NCBI RefSeq assembly: GCF_028622115.1
Contig: NZ_CP097263.1
Coordinates: 248,001-312,000, forward strand
DNA from: Kutzneria chonburiensis
Lineage (GTDB): Bacteria > Actinomycetota > Actinomycetes > Mycobacteriales > Pseudonocardiaceae
Reading direction: 5' to 3'
DNA length: 64,000 nt
The stretch's first letter is position 1, and the number at the start of each line of letters is the position of its first letter. Of this stretch, positions 60,455-64,000 are shown piece after piece. The notes beneath the pieces were generated by a model. The model ran no database searches. It was given only the letters and a program-made list of their open reading frames with translations, and was not told where the DNA came from. Made by a program: the position numbers and the translations under genes.

Positions 60455-61300
60455 ATGACCTCACGCCGCGAGCTGATCGACGCCTCGATCCCGCTGATCA
60501 CCGCCAACTACGTCTTCCCGGACATCGCCGAGAAGGTGGTGGAGGTGTTGCGGCGCAACGACTACGAGCACCTCGCGAACATCGACGAGTTCGCCGCGGC
60601 GGTCACCGCCGATCTCCAGTCGGTCAACGGGGACAAGCATCTGCGCCTGCTGCACGAGGAACCCAGGCCCCGCGCGGCGACCGAGCACCACGGCTTCGAC
60701 AAGGTGGAGGTCCTCGACGGCAACATCGGCTACGTCGAGAACACTTGGCTACGGGAGGCCGGCCGGTTCGGCGACTTCGCCGTCGCCGCGATGACGCTGG
60801 TCGCCGGCACGGACGCGCTGATCATCGACCTGCGCCGGTGCCGCGGCGGCGACCCGGGCATGGTCTCGCTGATCTGCGCCTACCTGTTCGACGAGTCCAA
60901 GCACGTCAACGACATCTACAGCCGCCCGGACGACCTCACCATCCAGTTCTGGACCCCGCCCTACGTGCCGGGCCGGCGCTTCGGCGGCACGAAGCCGGTC
61001 TGGGTGCTGACCAGCTCGTTCACCTTCTCCGGCGGCGAGGAGCTGGCCTACGACCTCCAGCAGACCGGCCGGGCGACCCTCGTCGGCGAGACCACCCGCG
61101 GCGGCGCGCACCCGACCGACTGGCACGAGCTGGCCGAACACCTCTATCTCACGGTGCCCGAGGCGCGGGCGATCAACCCGAGGTCCGGCACCAACTGGGA
61201 GGGTGTCGGCGTCGTGCCGGACATCGCCGTTCCCGCTGATCAAGCCATGGACCACGCCGTCGAACTGGCTCGAAAATTCCTGGCCGACCCGGGCAACTGA
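60455..61300 (+). CDS. S41-family (C-terminal processing/IRBP-like) peptidase
   Basis: A 281-residue protein. The N-terminal helical region (ASIPLITANYVFPDIAEKVV) and IDLRRCRGGDPGMVSLICAY lead to the catalytic serine in VWVLTSSFTFSGGEELAYDL and TLVGETTRGGAHPTDWHELA. It lacks a PDZ domain and signal peptide, as in the tricorn-core/interphotoreceptor-retinoid-binding-like group, where it would act in the cytosol. The target is unknown. It is monocistronic, divergent from EI24. Confidence 0.9.
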   Translation: MTSRRELIDASIPLITANYVFPDIAEKVVEVLRRNDYEHLANIDEFAAAVTADLQSVNGDKHLRLLHEEPRPRAATEHHGFDKVEVLDGNIGYVENTWLREAGRFGDFAVAAMTLVAGTDALIIDLRRCRGGDPGMVSLICAYLFDESKHVNDIYSRPDDLTIQFWTPPYVPGRRFGGTKPVWVLTSSFTFSGGEELAYDLQQTGRATLVGETTRGGAHPTDWHELAEHLYLTVPEARAINPRSGTNWEGVGVVPDIAVPADQAMDHAVELARKFLADPGN

Positions 61301-61356
61301 CGGCCCTGCCGCCGCGTCCTCGATGTGACGTATCACACCTTTTGTCGGGAGAGGTC

Positions 61357-61836
61357 ATGAACAGAACCAAGTCGCTGGCCGCCCTGGTCATCGCCCTGCT
61401 GGCGATGCTCGCGCTCGTGCCGTCGGCCGGCGCCGCGCCCAGCGACACCACCGCGTACCTGACCAACATCCGCGTCGGCGCGCACCCCACGTACGACCGG
61501 GTCGTGCTCGACGTGACGAACCTGCCCAGCAGCTTCGCCTACACGCCGCAGGACAAGCTCTACTACGACCCGAGCGGCCTGCCGGTGAACATCCCCGGCT
61601 GCACCTTCGGCCGGCTGGCCATGCAGGGCGCCACCGAGCACACCGACAGCGGCCAGCTCACCTACACCGGCCCGCAGACCTTCACCACGCCGCAGCTGAC
61701 CAACGTCCGTGCGGTCGCGGTCATCGGCGACTTCGAGAAGGTGCTGAGCATCGGCCTCGGCCTGCGGCACGCCGCCGCCGTGCACGTCTTCACCCTCACC
61801 GCGCCCAACCGTGTGGTCATCGACGTCAACCACTGA
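61357..61836 (+). CDS. Secreted AMIN-like domain protein A
   Basis: A 159-residue exported protein. The signal peptide is SLAALVIALLAMLALVPSAG. The mature part is a beta-sandwich beginning TAYLTNIRVGAHPTYDRVVL and ending LTAPNRVVIDVNH, matching the AMIN-like domain of actinobacteria (related to the peptidoglycan/LysM-linked AMIN fold). ATG at 61357 is preceded by GGGAGAGG. The function is unknown, perhaps cell-wall or polysaccharide binding. It is a tandem paralogue of the next gene. Confidence 0.82.
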   Translation: MNRTKSLAALVIALLAMLALVPSAGAAPSDTTAYLTNIRVGAHPTYDRVVLDVTNLPSSFAYTPQDKLYYDPSGLPVNIPGCTFGRLAMQGATEHTDSGQLTYTGPQTFTTPQLTNVRAVAVIGDFEKVLSIGLGLRHAAAVHVFTLTAPNRVVIDVNH

Positions 61837-61933
61837 AGCTGCCGCACGGTTTTCTTGCCGGTGAAGGCAACGCGCTCGACGATCTTGGCGTTGACGAGGC
61901 GTACAGCCAACACCGCAGGGGGGAACACAACCC

Positions 61934-62398
61934 ATGATCAAGACGAAGGCGCTGGCCGCCGTGCTGGCCACCGCCCTGGCGATGGTCGTCGCCGCACCGC
62001 TGGCCGGTGCGGCGACGCAGGGTGTCGACGGCCCGCAGCTGACCGACATCAAGGTGCAGGCGAACGCCACGTTCGACCGGGTCGAGCTGGACTTCGACTC
62101 GCTGCCGGTCGCCAGCTGGGAGCAGGTCGACGAGCTGGTGGCCGACCCGAGCGGCAAGCCCTACAGCCTGCCCGGCAACACCTACATCTCGCTGGTGGCC
62201 CAGAACTCGAGCAGCTTCGGCACCTACTCCGGCTCCCGGAAGTTCACCACCCCGACGCTGAGCAACGTCCGCGCGGTCGGCATCACCGGCGACTTCGAGC
62301 GGGTGCTCAGCGTCGGCATCGGCCTCGATCACTCCGCCGCCATCCACGTTTCGCCCCTCACGGGACCGAATCGCCTGGTAATCGACGTGGACCACTGA
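61934..62398 (+). CDS. Secreted AMIN-like domain protein B
   Basis: A 154-residue paralogue of the upstream protein. Signal peptide LAAVLATALAMVVAAPLAGA, then GPQLTDIKVQANATFDRVEL, RKFTTPTLSNVRAVGITGDF and the matching end LTGPNRLVIDVDH. Both copies share the FDRVxLD and RAVxxxGDFExVLSxGxGL patterns, so they arose by duplication. The two are 97 bases apart and each has its own ribosome-binding site. The function is unknown. Confidence 0.82.
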   Translation: MIKTKALAAVLATALAMVVAAPLAGAATQGVDGPQLTDIKVQANATFDRVELDFDSLPVASWEQVDELVADPSGKPYSLPGNTYISLVAQNSSSFGTYSGSRKFTTPTLSNVRAVGITGDFERVLSVGIGLDHSAAIHVSPLTGPNRLVIDVDH

Positions 62399-62500
62399 TC
62401 GCTGGCAGTGATCGCCGCACCACTCCTTTGACCGATGACCCCGCCGCCGCCAGCCCGTAAGTTGGGGCGGGTCAGGGTCCCCTAACTGGGAGGTTTGTCG

Positions 62501-62599
62501 ATGGAGAGCGGCCTGCTGATCAGCGTCGAGTCCCTGGACGCCGCGGTCGACCGCGGCAAGGCCAACGGCGCCGTTGCCGACAACGACGGCAACGACTGA
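62501..62599 (+). CDS. 32-residue peptide, putative precursor substrate of the JmjC oxygenase
   Basis: ATG at 62501 has GGGAGG eight bases upstream and opens a 32-codon frame. The N-terminal half is MESGLLISVESLDAAVDRG, amphipathic and leader-like. The C-terminal half, GKANGAVADNDGND, is Asn/Asp-rich. Its TGA is followed at once by the GTG of the JmjC/cupin gene, so translation is tightly coupled. Gene order and size fit a RiPP precursor plus tailoring enzyme, with Asn/Asp side chains as candidate hydroxylation sites. I do not recognise the peptide family; it could instead be a regulatory leader peptide. Confidence 0.6.
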   Translation: MESGLLISVESLDAAVDRGKANGAVADNDGND

Positions 62600-63790
62600 G
62601 TGACCGGCATTCCTCAACTGGCTGACCTCGTCGCACCGATCGAGGTCAGCCAGTTCTTTGCCACGGTGCAGGGCCGGACGCACCGGCGGTTCGCCGGACA
62701 GGCCGGCCGGTTCGCCCGGCTGCTGCCGTGGGCGGACCTCAACCGCGCGCTGCGCCAGCACCGGCTGGACTTCCCGCGGCTGCGGCTGGCGCTGGACGGC
62801 GCGGTCGTGCCGGTGCACACGTACACCGAGATGGTCGACACCCGCCGCAACGGGCAGGTGCCGCGCCTGCTCAACGCGCCGCTGTCCGAGCAGCTGCGGG
62901 CCGGCGCCACCCTGGTGCTCGACTCCGTGCAGGAGATGTTCGAGCCGGTCGGCGACCTGGCCGCCGGGCTCGAGCACGACCTGCGGGAGAAGATCCAGGT
63001 CAACCTGTACGCCGGCTGGGGCACCACGCACGGCTTCGACGTGCACTGGGACGACCACGACGCGTTCATCATCCAGATCGCCGGCCGCAAGCGCTGGCGC
63101 ATCCACGGCGTCAGCCGCCCGTTCCCGCTGATGCGCGACACCGAGCTGCCGCAGCGCCCCGAGGGCGAGCCGATCGACGACTTCATGATGGAAGACGGCG
63201 ACGTGCTCTACCTGCCCCGCGGGCACTGGCACGACGTGTCGGCGGTGGGGGAGCAGTCGCTGCACCTGACCATCGGCTTCAACCGGGCGACCGGCGTGGA
63301 CCTGGTGTCGTGGCTGGCCGACCAGCTGCGGGTGGAGCAGGTGTTCCGCGAGGACCTGCCGCGGTTCGGGTCGACCGAGGAGCGTCAGCAGCGGGCCAAG
63401 GAGATCCGCGAGCAGCTGGTCGCGCGGCTCACCGACGACGTCGTGGACCGGTTCCTGACCGATCGCGACGCCCAGGCGCCCGCGCACAGCCGGCTCGGCC
63501 TGCCGTTCACCGCGACCCCGGGCCTGCTGCCCGAGGGTGACGAGGCCGAGGTGCTGCTGGTCGTGCCGCGTGCGGTCGTGGAGCACGGGAACGGCACGGT
63601 CGCGCTCGCCGCGGCCGGAAAACGCCTGGTCTTCGCCGCTGCCGCGGCGCCGGTGCTGGAGGCTTTGCTTCCCGCGCAACCGTTGTCCGTCAAGACCTTG
63701 GTCGAGCTGGCGGCCCCGACACTCGATCGGCGTACCGTCCGGGCCTTGTTGGGCGAGTTGGTCACACACGGGGTGCTGTCGCCACGGTGA
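62600..63790 (+). CDS. JmjC/cupin-4 family 2-oxoglutarate- and Fe(II)-dependent oxygenase
   Basis: A 396-residue protein of the bacterial ribosomal-oxygenase (YcfD/NO66-like) family. The double-stranded beta-helix has the iron triad H149, D151 (DVHWDDHDAF) and H211 (LPRGHWHDVSAV). KRWRIHG and LHLTIGFNRATGVDLVSWLA flank the helix and dimerisation parts. A winged-helix-like C-terminus (PLSVKTLVELAAPTLDRRTV) completes the family architecture. YcfD hydroxylates an arginine on ribosomal protein uL16; here direct coupling to a 32-residue peptide gene suggests that peptide as substrate. GTG at 62600 is fixed by the adjacency. Confidence 0.88.
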   Translation: MTGIPQLADLVAPIEVSQFFATVQGRTHRRFAGQAGRFARLLPWADLNRALRQHRLDFPRLRLALDGAVVPVHTYTEMVDTRRNGQVPRLLNAPLSEQLRAGATLVLDSVQEMFEPVGDLAAGLEHDLREKIQVNLYAGWGTTHGFDVHWDDHDAFIIQIAGRKRWRIHGVSRPFPLMRDTELPQRPEGEPIDDFMMEDGDVLYLPRGHWHDVSAVGEQSLHLTIGFNRATGVDLVSWLADQLRVEQVFREDLPRFGSTEERQQRAKEIREQLVARLTDDVVDRFLTDRDAQAPAHSRLGLPFTATPGLLPEGDEAEVLLVVPRAVVEHGNGTVALAAAGKRLVFAAAAAPVLEALLPAQPLSVKTLVELAAPTLDRRTVRALLGELVTHGVLSPR

Positions 63791-63800
63791 CTGTGTAAGA

Positions 63801-63819
63801 TTAGGTATGCCTAAGGTAA
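63801..63819 (+). promoter_or_regulatory. Iron box (IdeR/DtxR-type operator) overlapping a start codon
   Basis: TTAGGTATGCCTAAGGTAA agrees with the actinobacterial iron-box consensus TTAGGTTAGSCTAACCTAA at 15 of 19 positions. TAAGAT at 63796-63801 looks like a -10 hexamer placed five bases before the ATG at 63807, which implies a leaderless transcript. The iron box would then cover the transcription start and first codons, so iron-loaded regulator would block initiation directly. Confidence 0.75.
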
Positions 63820-64000
63820 CTTCCGAGGATGCTGCACGAGGCTGTGCCTTCGTGACCAGGCTGCTCGGTGGCAACCCGGCCGGGACCGCGGCCCTGATGA
63901 CCTCGTGGCTGCTCATCGAGCAGCCCGGGCCGTGGCCGGCCGACGCGCTGGAGAACGTGCTGACCGAGGCGTTCCCGGACGGGCGGATGGAGCAGCTGCG
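63807..64000 (+). CDS. Sucrase/ferredoxin-like (Suc_Fer) protein, N-terminal part
   Basis: The frame from ATG 63807 runs off the right edge; 64 residues are visible. CAFVTRLLGGNPAGTAALMT followed by SWLLIEQPGPWPADALENVL matches the start of the Suc_Fer-like family, which have a thioredoxin-fold [2Fe-2S]-type domain further on (not in the window). No ribosome-binding site is evident, in line with leaderless expression from TAAGAT. The overlapping iron box predicts induction under iron limitation. It follows the iron-dependent JmjC gene by 16 bases but appears to have its own promoter. Confidence 0.75.
   Translation, partial: MPKVTSEDAARGCAFVTRLLGGNPAGTAALMTSWLLIEQPGPWPADALENVLTEAFPDGRMEQL

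Follow-up and report, generated by a model that had tools for sequence, protein, structure and literature searches.

What does a gene of 32 codons encode when it stands directly in front of an oxygenase gene, and on what does that oxygenase act? The locus that raises these questions lies at the end of a 64,000-nucleotide stretch of Kutzneria chonburiensis DNA (contig NZ_CP097263.1, positions 248,001 to 312,000 of the forward strand), here called the window; the peptide gene and the features immediately around it are all on the forward (+) strand. Gene order, conservation at the protein level, a conserved metal triad, the predicted fold and a family-wide association with Asp-rich peptides make it probable that the peptide of 32 residues is made as a ribosomal precursor and that the JmjC_2 enzyme encoded next to it is dedicated to its modification. 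Most likely, the two form a pair of the type found with ribosomally synthesized and post-translationally modified peptides (RiPPs), in which the oxygenase would hydroxylate Asp (or Asn) residues in the tail of the peptide.

The peptide gene (62501..62599) begins with ATG at 62501, ends with TGA at 62597-62599 and is preceded by a ribosome-binding site (GGGAGG, 62488..62493). Its product consists of a leader-like part, MESGLLISVESLDAAV, and a core-like part, DRGKANGAVADNDGND. The GTG start codon of the oxygenase gene (62600..63790, 396 amino acids) follows directly after the TGA, and this zero spacing, described in an earlier note made from the sequence alone, was confirmed by direct reading. 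Forty homologues came from a pattern-based scan of 84,980 species genomes, a method that detects close relatives only. Of these, 37 (L006-L042) belong to Kutzneria, Amycolatopsis, Saccharothrix, Kibdelosporangium and their kin and include one record labelled Rhodococcus, and the same peptide type precedes the oxygenase in 37/37; the closest relative with a name is Kutzneria sp. 744 (enzyme identity 94%). The peptides of these 37 loci end in DR[GN]K[AV]NGA[VAL][ATD]D[NT]DGND(G). Since the peptide is present in all 37 and the DNDGND codon pattern occurs only once in the whole 10.4 Mb window genome, the gene is not regarded as a chance reading frame. No family match was found in Pfam or NCBIfam for the window peptide (without its Met), and eight further precursor peptides compared with NCBIfam and eight with Pfam gave zero matches.

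Constraint on the peptide was estimated from ten representatives (45 pairs) as the ratio of nonsynonymous to synonymous change (pN/pS). At 0.17, the 16-codon core is the most constrained part; the enzyme stands at 0.47 and a set of 13 leader codons at 0.58. In 38/38 peptides of the window's arrangement type (type A, see below), DNDGND keeps its three Asp without exception, and two Asn are equally invariant. Because no ribosome-binding site of its own is evident for the oxygenase, its translation is probably coupled to that of the peptide, and enzyme and substrate would be made together. The same two features, zero spacing and the lack of an evident second ribosome site, would suit a short open reading frame (ORF) that serves only as a leader peptide and controls oxygenase translation by attenuation or coupling. 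This is highly improbable, since the pN/pS values, together with codons for Arg, Gly, Ala and Val that vary synonymously, point to selection on the protein and not to the nucleotide-only conservation that the earlier note had raised as a counter-argument. Moreover, the zero spacing is not kept in other arrangement types; the distance differs there and is about 78 bases in L054, if the first in-frame start is used.

The enzyme was recognised as a JmjC/cupin-4 oxygenase in the earlier note, and this assignment is upheld by a match to JmjC_2 (PF08007, E 9.4e-29), a family of 2-oxoglutarate/Fe(II) oxygenases. The HxD...H metal triad (H149, D151, H211) and K164 are conserved in a comparison of homologues. 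In L043 (Catenulispora pinistramenti), Tyr replaces the first metal-binding His, which the sister locus L044 has. The AlphaFold model (predicted local distance difference test, pLDDT, 93.7) contains the architecture of ribosomal oxygenases, a JmjC fold with a C-terminal winged domain, and among solved structures NO66 and MINA53, both ribosomal oxygenases, are nearest to the enzyme. The C-terminal domain (residues 306-396, 63515..63787; pLDDT 94.0) matches MINA53 and NO66, many enzymes bearing a RiPP recognition element (RRE) and also some unrelated winged domains. As this fold is shared by ribosomal-oxygenase wings and by proteins of other kinds, a leader-binding role of the domain is putative.

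Kinship with NO66 and MINA53 would also suit a peptide that served the oxygenase as a small subunit, regulatory or activating, while the real substrate was some other protein, ribosomal or not. The window genome (one contig) encodes exactly one JmjC_2 protein and constraint is stronger on the peptide core than on the enzyme, both of which fit such a subunit, but it is quite unlikely in view of the tandem repeats of varied length in many type E peptides, as expected for multi-core precursors, of the peptidase beside type C peptides and of the possible RiPP settings of some relatives. A ribosomal-protein substrate is likewise disfavoured; no ribosomal gene was recognised among the ORFs around the window locus. 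Whereas NO66, MINA53 and YcfD are named for their ribosomal-protein substrates, the window enzyme has a precursor-like peptide encoded alongside.

The association with acidic peptides extends well beyond the close relatives. A homologue search in 394 genomes of the class (cut-off E 1e-20) gave 127 places in 114 genomes and in 53 of 138 genera, the window's own included. Together, regions for the other 126 places and the 40 from the close-relative scan make up 166 loci. Peptide genes were defined as ORFs of 25-250 codons with a ribosome site, whose last 22 residues hold at least three Asp, at least ten D/N/G/S/T and at most three R/K. The earlier note had advised a search for short ORFs upstream of JmjC homologues, and an Asp-rich ORF passing this rule was found upstream of the oxygenase in 151/166 loci compared to 20/848 control genes in those loci (94/117 compared to 3/690 with an earlier rule applied to 117 of the loci). 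Four extra loci are clear by eye (L111, L149, L174 and L177). Among the remaining eleven, L158 borders on the end of its contig, the acidic ORFs of L176 and L187 are of a different make, and nothing was recognised in L045, L090, L092, L197 and L199. Cys is absent from the last 22 residues of all 151 peptides, which the rule did not require, unlike the three or more Asp. A short precursor gene conserved beside a modifying-type enzyme, as expected for RiPPs, is hence found in 37/37 close loci and 151/166 overall, and the two genes seem to represent a single branch within a peptide-modifying family that is widespread in actinobacteria.

The last three of the eleven lie in other surroundings. Near the oxygenase gene, L091 has a YcaO-like gene that falls below the curated cut-off, L200 a YcaO-domain gene that exceeds it, and L155 a Cys-containing short ORF, for which no NCBIfam match was obtained, and an MsbA/type-I-like ABC transporter. 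These three are possible further RiPP groups.

In the window, the oxygenase gene is followed by a gene encoding a Suc_Fer-like protein (PF06999, E 5e-16), of which the 5' part lies at 63807..64000; the gene runs on past the window and ends at the equivalent of position 64742 (locus L005). Suc_Fer is found on the same strand behind the oxygenase in 37/37 close relatives. Upstream, at 60455-62398, the window has a gene for an S41-type peptidase and, in tandem, two AMIN-like genes (PF24837). Within the 37 close loci, nearly all covered with 5 kb flanks, the S41 gene is present in only four Kutzneria loci, three of which also have AMIN, and alaS/DUF948 are limited to Kutzneria and Saccharothrix loci, where they are on opposite strands. 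Because these neighbours are restricted to few loci, the conserved unit is peptide, oxygenase and Suc_Fer. The genes beyond Suc_Fer in the window genome (DUF948-like, alaS, ruvX, mltG and aroE, named from their ORFs without a family search) presumably have housekeeping functions; neither a transporter nor a leader peptidase was recognised by inspection of these ORFs, to which the earlier note had pointed. A candidate promoter of the peptide gene, proposed with low confidence from sequence only, consists of a TTTGACCGATGACC element and a -10-like GTAAGT (62427..62465). A TGACCGATGACC-like element at 62427-62440 lies within it, and similar elements were seen by eye upstream in several relatives.

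The 166 loci were assigned to arrangement types by marker genes. Type A (37 loci) comprises peptide, oxygenase and Suc_Fer. In type B (14 loci), the peptide (..GLLVAVEDI..RSRGEQPSDGGGTGRSDTND.. or similar) and the oxygenase are followed by an aldo/keto reductase and an APH-like kinase. Type C (22 loci) begins with an S9 peptidase (21/22), followed by the peptide (..EVEVEDLAEVTSRDITAGGDNDGTDSSSDFI), the oxygenase and a FhuF-like gene (20/22), which is adjacent or comes after inserted genes such as TetR and an ABC-2 exporter in L118; a FhuF_C match was obtained in L082 (E 2.2e-6). The Asp residues of DxDGxD are invariant in 21/21 type C peptides. Type D (18 loci) consists of peptide (..DLVVAVERLSEVQDRHDAEHSDSDGSDG or similar), oxygenase and aldo/keto reductase (15/18), with either a kinase-like gene or Suc_Fer on the opposite strand. 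One kinase-like gene, that of L076 (8624-9496), gave no Pfam match at 0.01; its relative in L077 matches APH (E 2.9e-6). Type E (56 loci) has mostly repeat peptides (e.g. MALDDDDITTSGGGGEGPADGGSNPEGHDGGADGTA... in tandem), many of them varying in length, in front of oxygenase and Suc_Fer; the other 19 loci were not assigned to any of these types. A hydrophobic-acidic motif is present in 62/69 peptides of types A, B and D, and a DDD-like start in 41/61 peptides of type E and the unassigned loci. Peptides highly repetitive in Asp and Gly (DGGADG, DGDASDSDGTDGD), whose start often contains DDD, were seen before JmjC-Suc_Fer pairs in several families (L104, L107, L108, L110, L113, L163 and L202 among them). 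In a quick tree built from 94 enzymes, each of the types A, C, D2 and D3 occupies one side of a branch, while B and D1 need 2 changes each, E needs 4 and the unassigned loci 8.

How the enzyme may work on the peptide can be proposed from these features. The N-terminal half (SGLLISVExL) would be the recognition part, bound by the C-terminal RRE-like domain, and the acidic tail (ADNDGND) the modified part, with beta-hydroxylation most likely on Asp and possibly on Asn. Hydroxylation at the beta carbon of His, Arg or Asn is the reaction of related enzymes, and since the tails have Asp in common, the best guess for the product is beta-hydroxy-Asp. DxDG is also known as a calcium-binding motif in lipopeptide antibiotics; this was considered for the tail, with no evidence either way.

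The earlier note had further described an iron box at the Suc_Fer gene, which was found again. The ATG of Suc_Fer (63807) sits within a palindrome, TTAGGTATGCCTAA (63801-63814), and the iron-box-like operator formed by the 19 bases from 63801 (63801..63819) agrees with a 19-position actinobacterial consensus at 15/19 positions, compared to 12 for the best of 50 shuffles of the region. The 14-base core of the palindrome, T[TA]AGG[CT]ATGCCTAA, is located 10-410 bases behind the oxygenase stop codon in 37/37 close loci and the window; its ATG is the Suc_Fer start in 19/37 and the window, and in the other 18 the palindrome lies upstream of Suc_Fer. A looser pattern gave four further matches elsewhere in the close loci. 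A second iron-box-like palindrome (TTAGGCTAACCTAA or TTAGGCTACCCTAA) was seen about 2.5 kb before the oxygenase end in L015, L016, L024 and L040. With a box called at 14/19 or more, boxes were found at 20/20 FhuF genes and at 8/9 type D Suc_Fer genes (5/6 and 3/3), and at type A Suc_Fer genes in 16/37 by the 19-base measure, or 37/37 by the 14-base core; shuffled controls (one per region) gave zero boxes.

Repeated adjacency, the two orientations and the different iron-sulphur protein in type C suggest a link of Suc_Fer/FhuF to the peptide-oxygenase pair. Fe(III) binding is an attractive idea in view of the three Asp of DxDGxD and the neighbours with iron boxes, and it is conceivable, at somewhat less than even chances, that the modified product binds ferric iron which the iron-box neighbour (Suc_Fer/FhuF-like) would reduce and release in shortage. 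Other findings do not support the iron part of this proposal. None of the 56 type E Suc_Fer genes has a box at 14/19 or above, the consensus scan gave no such box in the 166 loci over up to 900 bases in front of the oxygenase match, type B has neither a recognised iron gene nor an iron box, and Suc_Fer is present in 214/394 genomes, so often without a JmjC/peptide neighbour.

Where the iron would be held can be pictured in two ways. Beta-hydroxy-Asp is a ligand in non-ribosomal siderophores, and three such residues in DxDGxD could provide a hexadentate Fe(III) ligand in a secreted ribosomal siderophore, cut, exported, re-imported and reduced by the iron-sulphur protein. The invariant Asp of the type A (38/38) and type C (21/21) tails would suit it, as would the S9 peptidase and iron-box FhuF of type C and the ABC-2 exporter in one checked locus (L118). 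Such a siderophore is nonetheless unlikely: no exporter, receptor or leader peptidase was recognised near the window's type A gene (they may lie elsewhere), no iron box precedes the peptide, type B lacks a recognised iron gene, and DxDGxD is not in every tail. An intracellular reserve or buffer, in which the modified peptide holds Fe(III) in times of plenty and the iron-box protein frees it in shortage, would have an analogue in the bacterioferritin-associated ferredoxin, which frees iron from bacterioferritin. It agrees with an iron box on the reductase-like gene and not on peptide or oxygenase in types A, C and D, and with the near-invariant core, which fits a conserved internal role; against it stand the peptidase of type C and the lack of iron boxes in types B and E. 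Metal binding by the peptide and reductase activity are both putative, and this reading too is unlikely. More broadly, and rather tentatively, an actinobacterial class of ribosomal iron-binding peptides can be envisaged, in which JmjC_2 enzymes would create beta-hydroxy-Asp ligands for Fe(III) in DxDGxD or DGGADG-like repeats and an iron-starvation-induced Suc_Fer/FhuF-like protein would release the iron, be it from a siderophore or an internal reserve.

The earlier note knew of no described system of this composition. None was found in openly licensed literature either, although JmjC hydroxylases in RiPP clusters are known. BipG and PbsQ are JmjC-family ornithine hydroxylases of biphenomycin-type clusters (PMC12707348, PMC12257519), and as far as the available text describes them, BipG, PbsQ and BpmG resemble the window enzyme in combining a JmjC (cupin-like) oxygenase with a ribosomal precursor. 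Compared by description only, the biphenomycin clusters contain several enzymes (multinuclear non-haem iron-dependent oxidase, MNIO; arginase; B12-dependent radical S-adenosylmethionine enzyme, B12-rSAM) and an aromatic/Arg core, whereas JmjC is the only modifying enzyme recognised here and the tail is Asp-rich; no MNIO, B12-rSAM or arginase was recognised among the ORFs around the window gene, few of which were library-scanned. Beta3-alpha3 RRE-like folds fused to JmjC (PF08007) occur in fish and algae, with the closest bacterial JmjC homologues in RiPP-like contexts (PMC12710340); the available part of that account names no precursor family, Asp-rich peptide or iron partner. Among the accounts found, this one and those of the biphenomycin hydroxylases come closest to the present system. 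Side chains of RiPP cores are also hydroxylated by PflC and PosC (alpha-ketoglutarate-dependent HExxH proteins) and by the MNIO domain of PflD, at Gln (Asn in a variant) and Asp (PMC12636437), in the excerpts available by other enzyme families and on other cores. The subject of Xia 2025 (JACS) is a Cys-Tyr link as PMC12636437 describes it, and the Asp-rich tails here are without Cys. Neither Asp-rich precursors nor iron-partner arrangements were found described, and six peptide motifs searched as text gave no match, in the openly licensed literature, a scope that leaves out most subscription journals.

Homologues of the enzyme are widespread, nearly all of those examined are accompanied by an acidic peptide gene, and the tested peptides are without a Pfam or NCBIfam model. 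As a group they would amount to a considerable set of natural products, or of peptides that handle iron, which has so far been overlooked. The finding also bears on the kinship of ribosomal-type oxygenases and RRE-guided peptide enzymes, since the wing of the one resembles the recognition domain of the other.
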